A stretch of DNA of 64,000 nt from Archangiaceae bacterium (GTDB lineage: Bacteria > Myxococcota > Myxococcia > Myxococcales > Myxococcaceae): positions 1 through 64,000 of the forward strand of contig JAACJQ010000101.1 of NCBI GenBank assembly GCA_016879935.1, written 5' to 3'. The position numbers were made by a program, and so were the translations under genes. Position 1 is the first letter of the stretch. Every line of letters begins with the position of its first letter. The notes beneath the pieces were generated by a model that had not been told where the DNA came from, searched no databases, and saw only the letters and a list, made by a program, of their open reading frames with translations. Below are positions 351 through 12,378 of this stretch, in pieces.

Positions 351-442
351 TTCACGGGCGTTCCGCACGGTTTTCGAAGTGCTGTCATCAAGCATCGGGG
401 TCGACGCATTGAAGCAACATGAGCGTCGATCAGGAGGGGTCC

Positions 443-2686
443 ATGAACGTCACGAGTGAGCTGCAGACGGTGACCATCTACCGCGAGGGTGCGGTGTGCA
501 CGCGGCGCGCGAAGGCGGAGCGTGTCGGGACCGAGGTGCGCGTCGTGGGGCTGCCGCTGAGCCTGGTGGCGGGCTCGGTACGCGGCCGGGTGCTGACGGG
601 CCCCGTCGGGCTGCGCGTGCTCGACGTGCGCCCGGGCTTCGACGTGGAGTTCGGCGACGCCGTCGACGAGTCGGCCGAGGTGAAGGCCCGTGACGCCGCG
701 AAGGTCGAGGTCGTGAGGCTCGAGCTGCGCTTCAACCGCTACGACGCCGAGCTGCGCGAGCTGCAGACGCTCAAGCCCCTGCCCTTCGAGCCGAAAGAAG
801 GAGACGCGCCGCGGGCGGCACCGGTCGAGGCCACCCTCGCGATGACGGCCTTCGTCGACGAGCGCATGAAGCAGCTGCTGGTCGACAAACGCGCCGTCGA
901 GAAGGAGCTCAAAGACGCGCGCGACGAGCTGCAGCTCCGCGAGCGCCGCCTGGCCGAAGCGTCTGCCGAGAAGCGGAACTCGAAGGCGAAGGTGACGCGC
1001 GCGATCGTGCTGTCGATGTCGCACGCGGCCGAAGGGCCGATCGAGCTCGAGGTCGAGTACCAGGTGCCGGGCGTGCGCTGGGTGCCCAACTACACGCTGC
1101 GGCTCGAGAAGGGCTTCGTGGGTGGCAAGCTGCGCATGCGCGCGTCGGTCGCCCAGAACACCGGTGAAGACTGGAAGGGCGTTTCGCTCTCGTTGTCGAC
1201 CGCGACGCTGCTCCGCCGCACCGACGTGCCCGAGCTCAAGTCGTTGCGCATCGGAAGAACCCAACCGCCTGCGCCGAAGCCGGGGTTCCGCGCGCCTCCG
1301 CCGGGGCTCGACGAGCTGTTCGCCGGGTACGACGCGATAAGCCGGCCCCTGCCTCCTCCGAAGTTCGAGCCACCGCCGCCCCCTCCACCGCCAGTGCGAC
1401 GGCAGGCGCCGCAGGTCTATCAGGAGAAGAAGAAGCTCGACACGGAGGTGCTGGAGCAGGCCTCCGAGCCCGCGCCCGAGATGGATGCGCCCATGAACCA
1501 TCGCACTCGAAGTGCGGCCGTCGCCGGCCCCGCCAAGCCGATGGCGCCGGGCGCGATGCCGATGCCCTCCGTTGCAGCGCCGATGATGCCCCCCATGCAG
1601 GCGATGCCCAAGCGCGGCGGCGGCGGCGTGTTCGGTGGCATGGCCCGCGCGGTCGGTGGTGCCGTGGGCGCCGTCGGCGCAGTCGCCGCGAGCGCGGTGA
1701 TGTCACGAGACGAGGACGAAGGTGGAGCCGACGGCTTTGCCGATGCCCTCTCCGAGGAGTCGCCGACCGGCAGCCAGTACGCGCCGGTGATTCCCACCTT
1801 CACGCCTGCAGAGGGGCTGCTCGACTACGACCGCCTGCGTATGCCCGGGGCCGAGGTCGCGGGCGCGCGTGGAAAGCTCTCGCAGGTCTCGGAGTTCGAC
1901 GCCGTCTTCGCCGTCGGCGTGACGGTGCAGGTCGACGTGCTGCTCGCCGTCTTGAACCTCTGGCAGCAGCGCACCTCGATGGTTCACGCGCTCCCCTTGC
2001 CTCCGCGCTGCACGATGGTGGCGTCGTTCGACGCCTTCGACTTCCGCTACGACTGCGTGGCGCCGGTCGACGTGCCCTCGACGGGCCAGTGGAGCACGGT
2101 GCCGGTGATGGAGTGCCAGGTGGGGCTCACGCCGCAGTACGTCTGCGTGCCCGCCGTCGAGCCGAAGGTGTACCGCACGCTCGCCATCTCGAACGCGTCG
2201 ACGACCGCGCTGCTCGCGGGCCCCGTCGAGGTCTCGGTTGGCGACGAGTTCCTCATGACGACGACGATGCCCGCGATTCCGCCCGGCGCGAACACGGAGC
2301 GGCTGGGGCTCGGCGTCGAGGAGGCCATCAAGGTCGCGCGAAAGACGAACTTCGCCGAGACGACGGGTGGATTCCTTGGCGGCTCGACGGTGCTCAAACA
2401 CGACGTCGACATCGAGGTGAACAACCGCCTCGCCAGTGCCGCCAACCTCGAGGTGCGCGAGCGCGTGCCACAGGTGCCGCTCTCGGAGAAGGACATCAAG
2501 GTCGAGGAGGCCGAGGTGAAACCTGCCTGGGGCAAGGTCGCCGGCCCGGTGGACGGCGTGGTGACCGAAGGCCTGAGGCGATGGCACGTGACGGTGCCAC
2601 CTGGTGGGCGCACGACGCTGACCGCTTCGTTTCTGGTGCGCATTCCGGCCGACAAGATGCTCGTCGGCGGCAACCGGAGGAACTGA
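443..2686 (+). CDS. DUF4139/DUF4140 mucoidy-inhibitor-like protein, 747 aa
   Basis: The N-terminal ~100 residues (TIYREGAVCTRRAKAE...) match the DUF4140 pattern. They are followed by a Glu/Arg-rich coiled coil (about 105-190) and a long beta-rich DUF4139-type region to the end, containing the family phrase GVRWVPNYTLRLE. Between them lie an insert with Pro runs (about 280-340) and a Gly/Ala/Met-rich stretch (about 365-430), unusual for the family. I chose ATG 443 over ATG 419 because AGGAGG (432-437) sits 5 bases before 443. The family was named for MuiA-like mucoidy inhibitors and its biochemical role is not established. A second family member starts 2 bases after this stop, so the pair is cotranscribed. 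No signal peptide is visible. Confidence 0.85.
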   Translation: MNVTSELQTVTIYREGAVCTRRAKAERVGTEVRVVGLPLSLVAGSVRGRVLTGPVGLRVLDVRPGFDVEFGDAVDESAEVKARDAAKVEVVRLELRFNRYDAELRELQTLKPLPFEPKEGDAPRAAPVEATLAMTAFVDERMKQLLVDKRAVEKELKDARDELQLRERRLAEASAEKRNSKAKVTRAIVLSMSHAAEGPIELEVEYQVPGVRWVPNYTLRLEKGFVGGKLRMRASVAQNTGEDWKGVSLSLSTATLLRRTDVPELKSLRIGRTQPPAPKPGFRAPPPGLDELFAGYDAISRPLPPPKFEPPPPPPPPVRRQAPQVYQEKKKLDTEVLEQASEPAPEMDAPMNHRTRSAAVAGPAKPMAPGAMPMPSVAAPMMPPMQAMPKRGGGGVFGGMARAVGGAVGAVGAVAASAVMSRDEDEGGADGFADALSEESPTGSQYAPVIPTFTPAEGLLDYDRLRMPGAEVAGARGKLSQVSEFDAVFAVGVTVQVDVLLAVLNLWQQRTSMVHALPLPPRCTMVASFDAFDFRYDCVAPVDVPSTGQWSTVPVMECQVGLTPQYVCVPAVEPKVYRTLAISNASTTALLAGPVEVSVGDEFLMTTTMPAIPPGANTERLGLGVEEAIKVARKTNFAETTGGFLGGSTVLKHDVDIEVNNRLASAANLEVRERVPQVPLSEKDIKVEEAEVKPAWGKVAGPVDGVVTEGLRRWHVTVPPGGRTTLTASFLVRIPADKMLVGGNRRN

Positions 2687-2688
2687 AC

Positions 2689-4203
2689 ATGAAGCTCGAT
2701 CACGTGATCGTCATGGAAGACCGCGCGCAGGTGGAGCGTCGCGGAACGGTTTCGCTCGCAGGAGGCATCTCGACGGTGGAGCTGCCCGGCTTCCCGCTCG
2801 TGGCCGTCGATCGATCGCTCTCGGTGGAAGCGACGGGCGCGACGGTGCACGAAGCGCGGCTGGTGCGCCGCTGGAAGCAGAAAGAGAAAGGCGGTCTGCC
2901 CGCAGACGCGAGCGAGCTGCGCAAGCGGGTGCAGACGTTGATCGACACCCAGTACACGCACGACTCCGATGTCTACCGGCTGACGACCCGGCGCGAGGCG
3001 CTGAGCGTCGCGCGGCAGGCGCTGCTGCAGTCGATGGGGCAGCGGGTCGGTTACGGCGAAGCCGACGTGGCGACGTGGCAGACGCAGCTCGAGGCGTTGT
3101 CGGCGCAGCAGCGCGAGAACGACGAAGCCGTACGCACCGCTCAAGCGGCGGTCGACTCGGTGAAGCGCGAGCTGCAGGCGACGCGACAGGCGCTGGCGCT
3201 GGCCGAGGAGCGCGTGGAGGATCTCGAGTGTTTCCTCTCGCTCACGCTCGAAGGCCAGGGCGAGGTGGCGGTGCGGGTCAGCTACCTGGTGCCGTGCGCA
3301 GTCTGGCGGCCCGCGTATCGCGCGACGCTCTCGGGTGAGCAGGTGCTCTTCGAGTCCGAAGCGGTGGTGTGGCAACGCACCGGAGAAGCGTGGAACGACG
3401 TGCAGCTCGAGTTCTCGACGGCGCGCCCGACGCTCGGCACGACGCCGCCAACGCTGGTCGATGACTGGTTGTCGCTGCGACCCAAGACGTCGGTCGAGAA
3501 GCGCGTGGTCGACGTGACCGTGCGTGAAGAGGTGATTCAGACCGCCGGAGAAGTGTCGACGACGGTGCCCGAGCTGCCAGGGCTCGATGACGGTGGCGAA
3601 GCGCGGCTGATCACGGCTCCGGCGCGATCGACGGTTCCCAGTGATGGCCAGCCCCACCGCGTTCCACTCGGCCGCTTCGAGGCGAAGGCGACGCTCGAGC
3701 TGGTGTGTCCACCGGAGTTCTCTCCCCTCGCCTTCACCGTCGCGCGGTTTCCCAACGCGGGGAGCTCGGTACTGCTCGCAGGGCCGGTCGATCTGATCCG
3801 CTCCGCCGGCTTCGTGGGTCGCTCGCAGGTCTCGTTCACCGCGCCTCAGGAGACGTTGAAGCTCTCGTTCGGCAGTGAAGACGGCGTTCGCGTGACGCGC
3901 GTGGTGGACGAGAAGGTCGACGAGGCGCGGCTCACCGGGCGCAAGACGACGAAGAAGATCGTCACGCTGCACGTGTCGAACGCGAGCCGCGAACCGAAGC
4001 GGCTCAATCTGGAAGAACGGCTGTTCGTCTCCGAGGTGAAGGAGGTCGAAGTGCAGGTGCTCCAGAAGGAGTGCGACCCCGCGCCGAACACCGTGTCGAA
4101 GGACGGCATCGCGCGCATGGAGATCGCGCTCGGCCCCAACGCGACGAAGAAGGTGAAGTTCGTGTGGGAAGTGAGCGCGGCGAGCAAGGTCGCAGGGCTC
4201 TGA
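2689..4203 (+). CDS. Second DUF4139-family mucoidy-inhibitor-like protein, 504 aa
   Basis: This is a paralogue of the upstream gene without its low-complexity insert. It has an N-terminal beta domain (about 1-85), a heptad-like Gln/Glu/Arg-rich coiled coil (about 90-185) and a C-terminal DUF4139 region beginning near VRVSYLVPCAVWRPAYRATL. ATG 2689 follows GGAGG (2676-2680) with 8 bases between, and the upstream gene stops at 2686, so translation is probably coupled. The two proteins share architecture but differ clearly in sequence, which suggests a heteromeric pair rather than a recent duplication. The family assignment is strong; the molecular function is unknown. Confidence 0.85.
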   Translation: MKLDHVIVMEDRAQVERRGTVSLAGGISTVELPGFPLVAVDRSLSVEATGATVHEARLVRRWKQKEKGGLPADASELRKRVQTLIDTQYTHDSDVYRLTTRREALSVARQALLQSMGQRVGYGEADVATWQTQLEALSAQQRENDEAVRTAQAAVDSVKRELQATRQALALAEERVEDLECFLSLTLEGQGEVAVRVSYLVPCAVWRPAYRATLSGEQVLFESEAVVWQRTGEAWNDVQLEFSTARPTLGTTPPTLVDDWLSLRPKTSVEKRVVDVTVREEVIQTAGEVSTTVPELPGLDDGGEARLITAPARSTVPSDGQPHRVPLGRFEAKATLELVCPPEFSPLAFTVARFPNAGSSVLLAGPVDLIRSAGFVGRSQVSFTAPQETLKLSFGSEDGVRVTRVVDEKVDEARLTGRKTTKKIVTLHVSNASREPKRLNLEERLFVSEVKEVEVQVLQKECDPAPNTVSKDGIARMEIALGPNATKKVKFVWEVSAASKVAGL

Positions 4204-6018: not shown

Positions 6019-6690
6019 TCACGACGCGGGCGGCGGCTCTTTCGGCAGCTCGGCAGCGACCTCGGGCTTCGGTGCTTCGGCCTGAGCCTTCGCCATGGCC
6101 GCAGCGATGGCGGCCTGCCGACGGCTCCAGAACCAGTACGCCGTGTATGCGCCCAGCAACCCCACCACGATCATCGACCCGTCAGTGCTCGCAGGTGGGC
6201 GTGGCGGCGGCGGCGGAACGGGCGTGCGCTCCATCACGTCGGGCGTCAGCTCGGAGGCCCTGGTGAACACCATCACTTCGCTCACCGAGTACATGCGATC
6301 GCCACCTTCAGCGGTCAGTCGCAGGTACCTCGCCTGGCCCTTGAGCGTCGTCGTCGTGCGCGTGCGCAACCCGGCCAGCGCGTCTTGCGGCGCGCGCCAG
6401 AGCGGCTGAAAGAAGTTCCCGTCGACCGAGCTCCACAAGATGAAGTCGTCGTTGTTGTCGCCCTGAATCAGCGCGGCTTCGATCGGGTACGTCTGGCCGA
6501 GGTCCCACTCGAGCACGCCGTCGGGCGCGATGATGGCGGCCAGCTGCGAGTCCCACGGAGCGCCTTCGTACTCACCCTTCGCATCACGCACGACCGTGGA
6601 GCGTTGAACGCCCTGATCCTTGCGCACCTGCGCCGAGGGCAACAGCCCGGGAGACGCTCCCACCACTGCCAGCAGCACGACCGAGATCAT
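6019..6690 (-). CDS. Exported discoidin-like (F5/8 type C-like) protein with C-terminal membrane anchor, 223 aa
   Basis: A short hydrophobic signal (MISVVLLAVVGASPGLLP) precedes one discoidin-like beta-sandwich at about residues 30-145. Its pattern is typical: an opening S-x-x-x-D-x-x-x-G-APWDS segment, VLEWDLGQTYPIEAALIQGDN in the middle, and ARYLRLTAEGG near the end. A Pro-rich hinge, a transmembrane helix (about 172-190) and a charged Ala/Lys/Glu tail follow. The likely role is binding glycans or surface polymers at the envelope. The gene converges on the VOC gene, with 4 bases between the two stop codons. Confidence 0.75.
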   Translation of the reverse strand: MISVVLLAVVGASPGLLPSAQVRKDQGVQRSTVVRDAKGEYEGAPWDSQLAAIIAPDGVLEWDLGQTYPIEAALIQGDNNDDFILWSSVDGNFFQPLWRAPQDALAGLRTRTTTTLKGQARYLRLTAEGGDRMYSVSEVMVFTRASELTPDVMERTPVPPPPPRPPASTDGSMIVVGLLGAYTAYWFWSRRQAAIAAAMAKAQAEAPKPEVAAELPKEPPPAS

Positions 6691-6784: not shown

Positions 6785-8395
6785 ATGGTGTGCGCACCAC
6801 TGATGGCTCAGACGCTCGGGAAGTACACACTCGTCCGCAAGCTGGCGACCGGAGGCATGGCCGAGGTCTTCCTCGCGCGCTCCGACGGCCCCATGGGCTT
6901 CCAGAAGAAGCTCGTCGTGAAGCGAATTCTCCCGCACTTCGGAGAGGACCAGAACTTCATCAACATGTTCCTGTCGGAGGCGCGGCTCGCGGCCGAGCTG
7001 AACCACCCGAACGTGGTGCAGATCTTCGACTTCGGGCAGACCGACGGCACCTACTACATCGCGATGGAGTTCATCGACGGGCCGAACCTCCGCGCGCTCA
7101 ACAAGGCGGCGCGTGAGACCGTCGGGCCGATCTCCCTGCCGCTGTGCGCCCGCATCATCGCGCTCGCTGCGGAAGGCCTCGGCTACGCGCACGATCTGAA
7201 GAACCAGGCCGGCCAGCCGATGAACCTGGTGCACCGCGACATCTCGCCCGACAACGTGCTCGTCTCGCGCAACGGCGCGGTGAAGGTCGTCGACTTCGGC
7301 ATCGCCAAGGCCAGCACGCAGCCGCACCTCACGAAGAGCGGCGTCATCAAGGGCAAGCTCGCGTACATGCCGCCCGAGCAGCTCGCGCGTGAGCCGCTCG
7401 ATCGCCGCGCCGACGTCTTCGCGCTTGGCGTGGTGCTCTACGAGCTCGTCTGTGGCGCGATGCCGTTCGACGCGACGAGTGAAGTCAGCATCATTCAGGC
7501 GATCATGGGCAGCGAGCCCCTCGTGCGCGCGAGCAACAAGCGCAACGATCTGCCGCCTGCGCTCGACGCGATCATCTCGAAGTGCCTCGAGAAGGACGTG
7601 ACCAAGCGGTACCAGAGCTGCCGCGAGTTCCAGATGGATCTCGAGCGCTTCATCGCGTCGACCGGAGAGGTCGTCTCGGTGGCCGACGTCGGCAAGCTGG
7701 TCGAGCACCTCTTCCCAGAGGACCACGAGGTCACGCTCCAGAACGTGCTGCCGCCCGGGGGCATTCAGCTCGATCGCACGCACCCCTCGTCGGCTTCGCA
7801 GGAGCGGCTGGCGCCCCCCGTGCCCACCCAGGCCGGCACCGGCATGTCGGCGACGACGCTCAAGCCGATCGACACCGGCTCACACGGGGCCTCGAAGTCG
7901 AAGGGGCCGCTGTTCGCCGGCCTCGGCCTGGGCGCGATCGCCATTGGCGTCGGGGCCTACCTCGCCCTCAAGCCGCCTCCCCCGCCGCCGAAGGTCGACC
8001 CGTTGCCGCCTCCCGTCGTCACGCCGCTGCCGCCGGTCGTGGCTGTCGTCGACGCAGGCGCTCCGGAGCCCATCGTCGACGCAGGGGCTGCGGTGGTGGT
8101 GGCCGAGATCGACGCGGGCGCGCCAGTCGTGGTGGCCGAGGTCGTCGATGCCGGCTCGAAGGTCGTCGCGCCGGTGGCGAAGATGGGGCGAATCGACTTC
8201 CGCATTCGCCCAGTCGGCCGCGTCTACCTCGACGGAAAGTTCCTCGGCGAGACGCCGCTCGGAAAAGAGATTCCTGCGAGCCTCGGCGTTCACACCATCA
8301 AGGTGATCGAGCCCGGCTCGAACAAGACCATCGAGAAGAGCTTCACGGTGAAGCCGGGCACCAACCCGTTCACCCACAACTTCAACCTGGAGTGA
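6785..8395 (+). CDS. Membrane-anchored Ser/Thr protein kinase with PEGA-like tail, 536 aa
   Basis: This is a Hanks-type kinase. Visible motifs are the Gly-rich loop ATGGMAEVF (21-29), catalytic Lys46 in VVK, HRD 150-152 with D152 as catalytic base, and DFG 170-172, then APE-like PPEQ. The kinase domain ends near 295. After a linker there is one transmembrane helix (about 375-396), a Pro run, repeats of VDAG, and a C-terminal PEGA-like domain (about 463-536; GRVYLDGKFLGETPLGK) that would face the periplasm. An internal ATG at 6803 is an alternative start. The gene leads a compact operon; the next gene begins 2 bases after its stop. The stimulus and substrates are unknown. Confidence 0.93.
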   Translation: MVCAPLMAQTLGKYTLVRKLATGGMAEVFLARSDGPMGFQKKLVVKRILPHFGEDQNFINMFLSEARLAAELNHPNVVQIFDFGQTDGTYYIAMEFIDGPNLRALNKAARETVGPISLPLCARIIALAAEGLGYAHDLKNQAGQPMNLVHRDISPDNVLVSRNGAVKVVDFGIAKASTQPHLTKSGVIKGKLAYMPPEQLAREPLDRRADVFALGVVLYELVCGAMPFDATSEVSIIQAIMGSEPLVRASNKRNDLPPALDAIISKCLEKDVTKRYQSCREFQMDLERFIASTGEVVSVADVGKLVEHLFPEDHEVTLQNVLPPGGIQLDRTHPSSASQERLAPPVPTQAGTGMSATTLKPIDTGSHGASKSKGPLFAGLGLGAIAIGVGAYLALKPPPPPPKVDPLPPPVVTPLPPVVAVVDAGAPEPIVDAGAAVVVAEIDAGAPVVVAEVVDAGSKVVAPVAKMGRIDFRIRPVGRVYLDGKFLGETPLGKEIPASLGVHTIKVIEPGSNKTIEKSFTVKPGTNPFTHNFNLE

Positions 8396-8397
8396 GC

Positions 8398-9282
8398 ATG
8401 CTCCGCTCAATCATCGTCGCCGTCGTGGTGGCGACCTCAGCCGTGGCGTCGGCGCAGCAGTCTGCCGAGGTCACCAAGTACCTGCAGGCCACCATCGCGC
8501 TCTACGAGAACCTCGAGTACGCGAAGGCCCTCGCGCAGGTGCAGAAGGCCAAGGCCAAGGCCAAGACGCCCGACGACGAGGCGCGCTGCGAGGTGCTCGA
8601 GGCCATCGTGCTCGCCGACATGGGCAAGGACGAGAAGGCGACCAAGGCGTTCCAGTCGGCCTTCTCGTTCGACCCCGAACTCAAGCTGCCGGTGGCTGTC
8701 GCTCCGAAGATCACCGCGCTCGCCGAGAAGGCGCGCGAGCAGGTGAAGAAGATGCTCGCGCCCACCATCGCCGCGCAGAAGGCCGACGAAGAGAAACGGC
8801 TCGCCGAAGAGAAGGCGAAGGCCGACGCCATCAAGGCCGAAGAGGACAAGCGCCGAGCCGAAGCGGTGGCCCAGCAGCAGAAGGAAGAAGACGATCGGCG
8901 CAAGGCCATGCAACCGCCTCCCGCGGTGGTGAAGAGCGGGCCCCGCCTGCGATCGCTCTCGTGGATTCCGGGCGCCGTCGGCCTGCTCGGTGCCGGCGTC
9001 GCGACCGCTGCCTTCGTGAGCGCCTCGGGCAGCTACAACAGCCTGGTGATGGGCATGTCGCTGACGCCCGCGCAGGCACTGGCAGCTCGCGACGGCGGCA
9101 AGACGATGGCGCTCATCGGGTGGATCTCCTCGGGCGTCGCGGTCGCTGGCATTGGCGCGGCGGTGGTGATGTTCCTGATGGGGAACGGTGATGCCGCACC
9201 ACCGGTGAGCGTCACGCTCACGCCGCAGGGCGCGTCGGTGTCGGTCTTCGGCAGCTTCGACGTGGCGGAGGTGGTGCGATGA
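8398..9282 (+). CDS. Exported coiled-coil protein with C-terminal hydrophobic segments, 294 aa
   Basis: The signal peptide MLRSIIVAVVVATSAVASAQ is followed by a helical TPR-like region (about 25-110). A Lys/Glu/Ala-rich coiled coil comes next (about 120-178, EEKRLAEEKAKADAIKAEED), then two hydrophobic segments near 195-215 and 240-260 and a short Val/Thr-rich tail. GGAG (8389-8392) precedes ATG 8398. Myxobacteria often place such proteins directly after PEGA kinases. A scaffold linking kinase and envelope is an inference only. The end overlaps the next gene by ATGA. Confidence 0.82.
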   Translation: MLRSIIVAVVVATSAVASAQQSAEVTKYLQATIALYENLEYAKALAQVQKAKAKAKTPDDEARCEVLEAIVLADMGKDEKATKAFQSAFSFDPELKLPVAVAPKITALAEKAREQVKKMLAPTIAAQKADEEKRLAEEKAKADAIKAEEDKRRAEAVAQQQKEEDDRRKAMQPPPAVVKSGPRLRSLSWIPGAVGLLGAGVATAAFVSASGSYNSLVMGMSLTPAQALAARDGGKTMALIGWISSGVAVAGIGAAVVMFLMGNGDAAPPVSVTLTPQGASVSVFGSFDVAEVVR

Positions 9283-10559
9283 AGCGGCTCGGGCTGGCAG
9301 TGGGCGTCATCGGAGCGATCGCTTCGACCTCGGCCTGTTTCGACTTCGATGGGGCCTACGCGAGCTACTGCGCCAGGAACGGCTGCGCCGATGGTGGCTC
9401 GGGCGGCACCGGTGGAGGCTCGACCGCAGGCGGCTCGACGGCAGGCGGCTCGACCATGGCCGGTGGATCGGCGGGAGGCTCGTCGGCTGGGGGCTCGGCA
9501 GGAGGCGCGACCGCCGGTGGAGCGGCGACGGCCGGCGGGGCTGCGGGCGGGAGCGCTGGAGGCTCGGCGGTCGACGCAGGCGTCGATGCGGGCACCCCCG
9601 ATGCGGGCGTGATGTGCGTGGGCGTGCCGTTCTGCGTGCACCGGCAGACCCAGCGCACCGACTTCAAGAGCGCCGACGCCGTGTTCGGGACGACGCTCGA
9701 CAACGGCGGCGCCCTCTTCTCGCGCTACGGCACCATGCGCGGCACGATCTGGGTCTCGCACGGCGCTGACGGCACGCCGTCGACCGGCACCAGCCGCTTG
9801 TTCACGGGCGGGAACCCGCCGATGGACGTGATGGGCCAGACGAACAACGTGAACGATCTGATCCTCATCACCGAGAGCGATCTCATCACCGCGCGAATCC
9901 AGCGAGTGGTCGACGGAGGTCTGCCTCAGGTCCGCTACAGCGGAATGTGCTCGGGCATGTCGGTGACGGCCAACGCCTTCGATCGCGTCGGGAACAAGAT
10001 CGTGATCGGCGGTGACGACGATGGCCTGTGCGAGTTCGACCTCGGCACGGGGCAGTTCACGCTGATTCAGCCCGAAGGCCCGGGCAGCTCGCGGGTGAGT
10101 GACATCTACATCAGCCCCGGCAACGAGATCTTCTGGACCACCACCGACGGCTACATCGGCAAGGTGGGCGTGGGCCGCATCACCGGTCAGATCGACCCGA
10201 ACGGCATGGTGGCCATCGACGGCCTCGACGGAGACAACGTCTGGGCCATCGGAGACCAGGGCATCGTCACGACCCGCAACCTCGACGGCGGCTTCGACAC
10301 CGTGACGACCCTCGCCGCTCGCGCGTACTCGCTGCGGGTGACGAGCGACGGCATCTTCGTGGGCACCTTCGGCGGCATTGCGCACAAGACGCGCTTCACC
10401 GACGGCGGCTTCGAGCTGTTCGGACTGCCCGTCGACCCGTCGCACCGAGTCTGGGGCCTTGCCGGTGGGCCCGGAGCGCTCCACCTCGTGGGCGACGAAG
10501 GCCCCTTCAGCAACCCGAACCAGGCCTTCTTCTTCACCCTCATTCCCCGCACCCAGTGA
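9279..10559 (+). CDS. Gly-rich-linker lipoprotein, beta-propeller-like, 426 aa
   Basis: ATG 9279 overlaps the upstream stop as ATGA, so translation is coupled. The signal MKRLGLAVGVIGAIASTSAC ends in a probable lipidated Cys20 with a weak lipobox. A low-complexity GGS/GGA linker (about 40-100) and VDAGVDAG follow. The C-terminal ~315 residues hold short beta-strand units with Asp-Gly turns (FTDGGFELFGLP, VVDGGLPQVRYS), consistent with a propeller-like repeat fold. The globular part clearly resembles the next protein from CVGVPFCVHRQTQRTD to the shared end LIPRTQ. It is an outer-membrane lipoprotein of unknown ligand. Confidence 0.82.
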   Translation: MKRLGLAVGVIGAIASTSACFDFDGAYASYCARNGCADGGSGGTGGGSTAGGSTAGGSTMAGGSAGGSSAGGSAGGATAGGAATAGGAAGGSAGGSAVDAGVDAGTPDAGVMCVGVPFCVHRQTQRTDFKSADAVFGTTLDNGGALFSRYGTMRGTIWVSHGADGTPSTGTSRLFTGGNPPMDVMGQTNNVNDLILITESDLITARIQRVVDGGLPQVRYSGMCSGMSVTANAFDRVGNKIVIGGDDDGLCEFDLGTGQFTLIQPEGPGSSRVSDIYISPGNEIFWTTTDGYIGKVGVGRITGQIDPNGMVAIDGLDGDNVWAIGDQGIVTTRNLDGGFDTVTTLAARAYSLRVTSDGIFVGTFGGIAHKTRFTDGGFELFGLPVDPSHRVWGLAGGPGALHLVGDEGPFSNPNQAFFFTLIPRTQ

Positions 10560-10564
10560 GCGCG

Positions 10565-12091
10565 ATGCGAACAGTCCTCGCGCTGTGCGCCAGCCTCGTG
10601 CTGGGGGCTTGTGGACCATCGAAACCGCTCTGCAGCGCGAGCACCTGCAACGGCTGCTGTGACTCGGCCGGTGACTGCCGGTCGGGCTTCGAATCGTCCG
10701 CGTGTGGAACACGTGGTGCCGCGTGCGTCACGTGCTCGGTGACCGAGTCGTGTTCGTTCGCGCGGTGCGGGCCATCGACTGGCGCTGGCGGCGGCTTTGC
10801 GGTCGGTGGCGGCGGGGCTGCTGGGGGCTCGTCTCAGGCCGGAGGAACGGCGCTCGCTGGCGGCGCTGCGAGCGCGGGCGGCAATGCCACGGCGGGTGGT
10901 GCTGGGTTCGCGGGCGGAACGGCGACGGCGGGCGGAACAGGGACTGCGGGCGGAACTGCGACTGCGGGCGGAACAGCGACTGCGGGCGGAACAGCGACTG
11001 CGGGCGGCACAGCGACTGCGGGCGGAACAGCGACTGCGGGCGGCACTGCGACTGCGGGCGGCACTGCGACTGCGGGCGGCACTGCGACCGCGGGCGGCAC
11101 TGCGACTGCCGGCGGCTCGGCTGGCGGAGCGGCGCTGTCGTGCGTTGGAACGCCGTTCTGCGTTCACCGCTTCACGCAGCGAACCGACTACCGCGTCCCC
11201 GATGCACTCGTGGGCGCAGGCATCGACGACGCCGCCGCGGTCTTCTCCCGATTCTCGCCGGTGGGCTCGCTCTGGACGAGACATGGCACCACGTCGGCCG
11301 TCTCGGCCGGTACTGCGACAGCCTTCTCGATTGGCACGGCCCCCTTCGAAGCGGCGACAGGCACTCCGGGCGACTTCGTCATCATCACCGAGAGCAACCT
11401 CATCACCGCCCGCCTCGTTCACGTCGTCGACGGCGGCGTGGCGCGAGTCGCCTCGATGGGCACCTGCCAGGGCGGGGCCTTTCTCGCGAACGCGCTCGCC
11501 CGCGTCGGGAACCGGGTGGTGCTGGGCGGCTACGACGAGAGCCTCTGCGACGTGAACCTCGCGACCGGAGCCACCACCCTGCTCCAGGCCGAGACCTCGT
11601 CGAACAACGCCTTCGTCAACGACGTGCACGTGACGAGCAACGGCGACGTGTACTGGGCGACCTCGGACGGGTACGTGGGCCGACTGGGCGCTGGTCGCAT
11701 CACGCAGCAGCTCGACCCGAGCGGTATCGTCGGCATCGACGGCCTGCCGGGCGGAACGATCTGGGTCGTCTCCGATCAGGGCTACGTCACCACGATTCAC
11801 CCCGATGGCGGCGTCGGCGGCACGCAGGATCACTCGGGCCTGCTCGGCCGCGCGTACTCGCTGAAGGTCACCACCGACGGTGTCTTCATCGGCGCCTTCA
11901 ACGGCATCGGGCACCGCACCCGCTTCACCGACGGAGGCTTCGAGCTCTTTCCCCTGCCCCTCAGCAGCACCGCGGTGCGCGCGTACCTGATCGATGGTGC
12001 GCCGGGCGCGGTTCACGTCGCCGGCGATCAGGGGCCCATCAACGCGCCCACCGACGCCTGGTTCTTCTCCCTCATTCCCCGAACCCAATGA
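10565..12091 (+). CDS. Paralogous Gly-Thr-Ala repeat lipoprotein, 508 aa
   Basis: MRTVLALCASLVLGAC is a clear lipoprotein signal (lipobox L-G-A-C). A Cys-rich segment follows (about 20-65), then a long linker in which GGTATA recurs about 11 times, and a globular domain paralogous to that of the preceding gene. Shared markers are CVGTPFCVHRFTQRTD, ITESNLITAR, FTDGGFELF and the end SLIPRTQ. I preferred ATG 10565 to GTG 10556 because it starts the signal peptide. The next gene overlaps the stop by ATGA. The repeat linker probably holds the globular head away from the membrane. Confidence 0.85.
   Translation: MRTVLALCASLVLGACGPSKPLCSASTCNGCCDSAGDCRSGFESSACGTRGAACVTCSVTESCSFARCGPSTGAGGGFAVGGGGAAGGSSQAGGTALAGGAASAGGNATAGGAGFAGGTATAGGTGTAGGTATAGGTATAGGTATAGGTATAGGTATAGGTATAGGTATAGGTATAGGTATAGGSAGGAALSCVGTPFCVHRFTQRTDYRVPDALVGAGIDDAAAVFSRFSPVGSLWTRHGTTSAVSAGTATAFSIGTAPFEAATGTPGDFVIITESNLITARLVHVVDGGVARVASMGTCQGGAFLANALARVGNRVVLGGYDESLCDVNLATGATTLLQAETSSNNAFVNDVHVTSNGDVYWATSDGYVGRLGAGRITQQLDPSGIVGIDGLPGGTIWVVSDQGYVTTIHPDGGVGGTQDHSGLLGRAYSLKVTTDGVFIGAFNGIGHRTRFTDGGFELFPLPLSSTAVRAYLIDGAPGAVHVAGDQGPINAPTDAWFFSLIPRTQ
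10910..11110 (+). repeat. 18-bp tandem repeat (about 11 units) encoding GGTATA
   Basis: The unit is close to GCGGGCGGAACAGCGACT and is repeated head to tail about 11 times. Most variation is synonymous (GGAACA / GGCACT). It lies in frame within the lipoprotein linker, so unit gain or loss would change linker length without a frameshift. Confidence 0.9.
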
Positions 12092-12378
12092 GCAAGGCCA
12101 TGAACAAGACGCCTCCGCTGATCATCCTCGCCTTCCTCGTCGGCTGCGTGACGACGGCGCTCTTCAACGTGCCGCGCGCGCGGGCCGACTCCGCGAACCT
12201 CACGCGCTGGGAGCACTGGTGCGTCGACGTCGACGGCGTGCCCAAGAACGCCGATCTCGAGAAGGCCGGGGCCGAGGGCTTCGAGCTCGTCTCGGTGTCG
12301 TTCCGCCCGCCGGTCGTGCAGAACGGGAACTCGGTCGGCGGCGGCGCGACGTACCTCTGCTTCAAGCGCCCCCGCTGA
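12088..12378 (+). CDS. Small exported DUF4177-like protein, 96 aa
   Basis: ATG 12088 overlaps the upstream stop (ATGA). A hydrophobic N-terminal segment (about 8-25, ending FNVPRARA) could be a signal peptide or anchor. The rest, from LTRWEHWCVDVDG through ADLEKAGAEGFELVSVSF, follows the DUF4177 pattern: a strand, a helix, then G-A-E-G-F/W-E-L-V. Two cysteines remain in the mature part. It is the last gene of the kinase-lipoprotein operon. DUF4177 proteins have no assigned activity. Confidence 0.75.
   Translation: MSKAMNKTPPLIILAFLVGCVTTALFNVPRARADSANLTRWEHWCVDVDGVPKNADLEKAGAEGFELVSVSFRPPVVQNGNSVGGGATYLCFKRPR

Follow-up and report, generated by a model that had tools for sequence, protein, structure and literature searches.

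A conserved kinase, TPR-protein and small-protein gene core with an optional lipoprotein in a myxobacterial family: a candidate cell-envelope signalling unit

Myxobacterial genomes encode very many Ser/Thr kinases, and to our knowledge the inputs of most of them are unknown. Among the better described bacterial systems, the PknB and PrkC kinases combine a cytoplasmic kinase domain, a membrane helix and an extracytoplasmic sensor-like domain. In the Rcs system (PMC9907809), the outer-membrane lipoprotein RcsF signals to the inner-membrane protein IgaA, which controls a kinase pathway built as a phosphorelay. Here, we analysed a stretch of 64,000 nucleotides from an Archangiaceae bacterium (assembly GCA_016879935.1, contig JAACJQ010000101.1; hereafter the window), in which the gene of a kinase resembling PknB and PrkC in this predicted layout opens a block of five genes, followed by those of an exported TPR-like protein, two putative lipoproteins (lipoA and lipoB) and a small DUF4177-like protein. 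Kinase, TPR protein and small protein form the conserved core of this block, which could represent a signalling unit of the cell envelope whose outer part is optional.

The conserved three-gene core

The block consists of five plus-strand open reading frames (ORFs) in series, at 6785(6803)-8395, 8398-9282, 9279-10559, 10556(10565)-12091 and 12088-12378, with a 2-base gap at the first junction and 4-base overlaps at the remaining three, and thereby bears out the tight arrangement proposed in a preliminary description of this DNA. A GGAG motif directly before the kinase stop codon (8389..8392, plus strand) is the likely ribosome-binding site of the TPR gene; it is present in 12 of the 14 loci examined (exceptions L113 and L115), and in 13 of the 14 the TPR stop codon overlaps the following start (exception L112). 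This tight coupling is retained whether or not a lipoprotein gene is present. Terminator-like sites occurred at chance level (3 found, 2.7 expected).

The small protein was searched for in 145 genomes of the order, of which 18 gave a match, and, as a profile, in 195 genomes of the phylum, of which 26 did; the 16 genomes referred to in the following are those with strong matches (E<1e-30), 10 weak profile matches being excluded. All 16 belong to the family of the window, with seven in its own genus g1, five in g16 and one each in g18, g13, g2 and g3. The 15 named records that carry the block are all metagenome assemblies. In every one of the 16 genomes, the small gene is accompanied by the TPR gene and by the tail of the kinase gene at the least. 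Three of these loci are interrupted by contig ends: the G001 block is broken inside the lipoprotein linker, with its parts on contigs C257 and C318, and the kinase domain of G004 and that of G089 sit on a separate contig (the genome of the window itself, G000, comprises 9.5 Mb in 445 contigs). The flanks of the block vary, with prfA-prmC-murA in g1, genes for 2-oxoglutarate dehydrogenase E1/E2 and a cold-shock protein in g16 (read by eye), tatA/tatC-like genes in G018 and others elsewhere. Since it recurs in 16 genomes with differing flanks, the block is more than a chance arrangement, and the notion of a conserved, tightly spaced unit with predicted extracytoplasmic parts in all its products holds.

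Eight of the 16 genomes, namely all seven of g1 and G023 (g18), have a lipoprotein gene between those of the TPR and small proteins. In the other eight (G007, G008, G018, G021, G089, G090, G091 and G092) the TPR and small genes adjoin. The lipoproteins, which had been regarded as core partners, are therefore optional, and a five-gene core is ruled out; what stays linked throughout the 16 genomes is the set of kinase, TPR and small genes. A kinase conserved in close relatives that lack the lipoproteins is the outcome that the preliminary description had itself named as refuting, and it counts against the lipoproteins as core members but leaves the TPR and small genes unaffected. Moreover, a kinase gene with a PEGA-like tail is followed by a TPR relative, with no adjoining small-protein match, in G015, G110 and G010 (there at a contig edge), kinase and TPR genes converge in G121 and diverge in G009, and in G093 both lie near a contig end, likewise with no small-protein match. 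The kinase-TPR pair may thus be older than the full block.

The kinase gene (6803..8395, plus strand) probably starts at the second of its two candidate positions, as the orthologues L107 and L109 likewise begin with MAQTLGKY; the ORF opens at 6785. With a Pfam Pkinase score of 138 bits (cut-off 31.7; 4.2e-40) and Lys40, HRD (144-146) and DFG (164-166) invariant in alignment A4 (13 rows, one truncated at its N-terminus), the protein is a Hanks-type Ser/Thr kinase. A hydropathy scan gave a single strong membrane segment (7904..7972, plus strand; residues 374-396); a Val-rich spacer at residues 433-455 also scores, but lies within a DAG/Pro-rich linker. The PEGA-like stretch in the predicted periplasmic tail (8219..8356, plus strand) reaches 17.1 bits, under the Pfam cut-off of 20.8 for PEGA (PF08308), and all 13 scanned orthologues match the family at E<=0.1 (best 2e-7). 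Of the label "PEGA-tailed Ser/Thr kinase", the kinase part is firm; the tail is better called PEGA-like, and envelope sensing could occur through it. Identity as a PASTA kinase was ruled out, as NCBIfam NF033483 scored 258.5 bits against a cut-off of 450 and matched the kinase domain alone.

The TPR gene (8398..9282, plus strand) encodes a signal peptide and a TPR-like region carrying the conserved YENLEYxKAL, as well as a charged stretch of coiled coil and, at the C-terminus, two hydrophobic segments (alignment A3, hydropathy). TPR_2 was matched by 14 of 15 orthologues at E<=1 (best 5e-5), and the window protein scored 16.1 bits against a Pfam cut-off of 27. First described as an exported coiled-coil protein, which fits its export signal and coiled coil, it is better described as TPR-like with two C-terminal hydrophobic segments.

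The small gene (12088..12378, plus strand; second in-frame ATG at 12100) encodes an export signal, in which a G-C (LxGC-like) is conserved and an AxA motif is present, followed by a beta-alpha-beta domain (predicted local distance difference test score, pLDDT, 77; predicted template modelling score, pTM, 0.48). WEHWC, FRPP and CFKR are invariant in alignments A1 and A5. DUF4177 (PF13783) was matched at E<=5 by eight of the 16 family members (best 9.6e-4) and not by the window protein. The proposed DUF4177 likeness is reflected in the W-E start, the G-x-E-G-W/F-E-L-V motif and the F-K-R-P end. Unlike DUF4177 proteins, however, the small protein is exported and carries an additional FRPP...GGGA stretch and two invariant cysteines. 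No PDB relative was found at E<=0.001, a negative that proves nothing given the weak query model (pTM 0.48). Distant exported relatives with a similar FLAGC-type signal are found in other genera of the family (L095, L159-L165).

A possible cell-envelope signalling unit

We propose that the three-gene core, together with its optional outer part, acts as a cell-envelope signalling unit, a reading drawn from sequence whose chances we judge to be about even. Here, the kinase domain would be cytoplasmic and connected by one membrane helix and a Pro/Ala-rich spacer to a periplasmic PEGA-like domain. The exported TPR protein would be anchored in the inner membrane via a C-terminal hairpin, with its TPR/coiled-coil domain facing the PEGA tail, and this domain could keep the kinase in, or free it from, an active state. 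The small protein, with the two invariant cysteines of its domain, might serve as periplasmic accessory of the kinase-TPR complex. Where a propeller lipoprotein is present, in g1 and g18, its long flexible linker would let it contribute an input or output specific to these lineages from the outer side. The physical complex and its accessory are proposed because the linkage is conserved and the topology predicted, and the role suggested for the lipoprotein only because of its position and coupling. What is observed is the block with its tight spacing, its domains, the invariant catalytic residues and the optional lipoprotein; topology, complex, direction of the signal and any feeding of the kinase by the lipoprotein are inferred. 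The recurrence of the block amid varying flanks, its coupled starts, the invariant catalytic residues, the domain matches of the orthologues and the substitution ratios below 1 given further on for every gene speak for such a unit.

Several observations weigh against such a unit. Apart from the absence of a lipoprotein from half of the core-bearing genomes, TPR relatives are frequent in the order (114 of 145 genomes), and at the non-core TPR loci L064-L076 a kinase match lies within about 1.5 kb in just three of 13 cases. Likewise, around the distant small-protein relatives in eight genomes (L159-L165, L095), the 10-11 kb read contain neither a kinase nor a TPR match, and the promoter scan found no sigma-70-type promoter.

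The optional lipoproteins and neighbouring genes

The first lipoprotein gene, lipoA (9279..10559, plus strand), encodes a signal with a CFDFD start, a Gly-rich linker and a C-terminal domain (9612-10556). In lipoB (10565..12091, plus strand; alternative GTG start at 10556), the linker is encoded by an 18-bp tandem repeat of 14.3 copies (10859..11116, plus strand; Tandem Repeats Finder score 313) and the C-terminal domain at 11138-12088. Lipobox-like cysteines were recognized by eye in both (TSAC in lipoA, LGAC in lipoB) and in L113 (LAGC) and L120 (LTGC), which makes these proteins putative lipoproteins. The model of the C-terminal domain is all-beta (pLDDT 74, pTM 0.78; residues 64-111 unreliable). 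Foldseek returned 997 PDB chains at E<=0.001 for this model, and VIA-align gave Z>=8 for 981 of 981 chains (best 21.1), the top-ranking structures being virginiamycin B lyase and WD40 propellers. The domain is therefore predicted to be a beta-propeller.

The two proteins had been called paralogous repeat-linker lipoproteins, and the paralogy applies to their C-terminal parts, which are 48% identical across about 319 residues; the N-termini are unlike. The signature of lipoA recurs in L107, L108, L109 and, diverged, in L113, and lipoB has no CFDFD start and carries a Cys-rich module of 54 residues (10610..10771, plus strand) absent from lipoA. At E<=0.001, this module has 72 matches in the genome of the window and 27 to 71 in each of six genus mates; two further genera of the family gave 18 and 9, and four genomes from other families 6, 9, 0 and 0. 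It has no Pfam or NCBIfam match. Among 20 module-bearing stretches of the window genome (L169-L188), it mostly follows a signal-peptide-like stretch and precedes a Gly-rich linker and a varied C-terminus. As this head module recurs genome-wide with varied C-termini, lipoB is best read as a shuffled protein, a shuffled paralogue of lipoA. More broadly, the module mostly heads signal-bearing proteins with Gly-rich tandem linkers, suggestive of a modular lipoprotein repertoire throughout the genus.

An intact lipoprotein pair was found in the window only, and the six genus mates have one copy. The pair can thus be regarded as a local elaboration, in which lipoA is probably the orthologue and lipoB the extra copy. 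Among 60 genomes searched (own and relatives), matches covering the propeller were found in the own genome, in all six genus mates and, as a 135-residue fragment, in G018; most lower rows were set aside by query range as matches to the low-complexity linker. In L109 (G006), lipoprotein and small gene are separated by 151 bases (9847-9997), and these hold, just upstream of the small gene, a 31-bp match to a lipoprotein 3' end, stop codon included. It scored best (21) against the 3' end of window lipoA, where none of 1000 shuffles reached the score; for the five other references, the corresponding numbers were 8, 5, 0, 1 and 3 of 1000. We read this stretch as the probable relic of a second copy. 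Together with the window pair, it points to duplication and loss in the lipoprotein slot within one genus. A duplication in the lineage of the window alone that yielded two equal copies was rejected, as lipoA is 48% identical to lipoB and 61% to the L108 protein; a propeller tree that leaves both lipoA and lipoB unplaced also counts against it, as does the remnant in L109. The kinase-domain tree, with seven of ten inner branches unresolved, does not separate gain from loss of the lipoprotein outside g1. In a side observation, contig C257 of G001 carries an ORF of 872 residues (L077:2038-4656) that fuses a lipoA-type N-terminus and linker to an unrelated C-terminus, by eye propeller-like and then cytochrome-like, and contig C318 carries on the usual order of lipoprotein, small gene and prfA. 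This ORF is either an assembly chimera at the repeat linker or a case of genuine shuffling.

The lipoproteins could also be passengers, drawn from an expanded, shuffling repertoire of surface-type lipoproteins, that came to reside in an expressed operon but act outside kinase signalling, which we rate as a serious alternative, albeit on the unlikely side. The eight core genomes lacking a lipoprotein and the origin of the lipoB N-terminus in a module with 72 genomic matches both speak for it, as does the relic of a lost copy in L109. Moreover, the lipoprotein is the fastest-evolving gene of the block. In each of five locus pairs compared, the propeller has the highest rate of non-synonymous substitution (dN 0.105 to 0.608; prfA 0.002 to 0.090), and the ratio of non-synonymous to synonymous rates (dN/dS) is <1 for every gene, so that the propeller is constrained yet fastest-changing. 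The retention of a lipoprotein in all seven g1 genomes, however, is less easily explained for a mere passenger, overlapping starts are mostly kept at the lipoprotein loci, and the strongly diverged lipoprotein of G023 from another genus (L113; 28.6% over 168 residues) keeps the same slot, a linker and a CFNFDAAYxxYC-type start. Under the signalling reading, the same variation could reflect an exchangeable slot, in which propeller ectodomains are gained, duplicated, re-headed from the genome-wide Cys-rich stock and lost, so that species would feed different outer cues into one kinase, an extension that we consider doubtful. An improbable third option is an envelope assembly or quality-control machine whose TPR and small proteins handle envelope cargo, with the lipoprotein as one client and a kinase that merely tunes it: TPR domains, like exported small proteins, commonly belong to assembly or chaperone systems, and the core is found without a lipoprotein, but no cargo gene besides the lipoprotein is conserved next to the core across neighbourhoods, and the kinase is retained in every small-protein genome.

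Apart from the block itself, a divergent gene for an exported protein of unknown family adjoins the operon at 6019-6690 (minus strand). It is kept at the g1 loci that extend that far (L107, L108, L109, L120 and L077), was not seen in other genera and may have a common promoter region with the operon. Two adjoining plus-strand ORFs of 755 and 504 residues at 419-4203 look like a paralogous pair and may resemble DUF4139-type proteins.

Relation to known systems

The literature searches listed no description of a kinase-TPR-small-protein unit, and the excerpted passages of PMC6213207 contain none of the terms PEGA, TPR or lipoprotein; the module is in this sense uncharacterised, as initially suggested. 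For one membrane kinase, the block supplies specific candidate partners and tells the core apart from a lineage-specific part. Loci that lack a lipoprotein, have a single one, have two, or have one together with a relic offer a natural comparison for whether a bacterial Ser/Thr kinase can receive input from an outer lipoprotein, and suggest that uncultured relatives of predatory myxobacteria possess a signalling core that is conserved and an outer part that is exchangeable.

In comparison with PknB and PrkC, the window kinase has no PASTA domain reported and a PEGA-like tail in its place, and its gene is coupled to those of TPR and DUF4177-like envelope proteins. The predicted fold of the lipoprotein domain is like that of virginiamycin B lyase and WD40 propellers (Z about 21), but sequence identity is about 10%, a low-complexity linker is present and no enzymatic assignment is made. 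The likeness to the Rcs system is a functional analogy only, that of an outer-membrane lipoprotein reporting to an inner-membrane protein in control of a kinase pathway. Unlike Rcs, the block described here has no RcsF, IgaA or histidine phosphorelay, and its propeller lipoprotein and TPR protein could instead act together with a Ser/Thr kinase.

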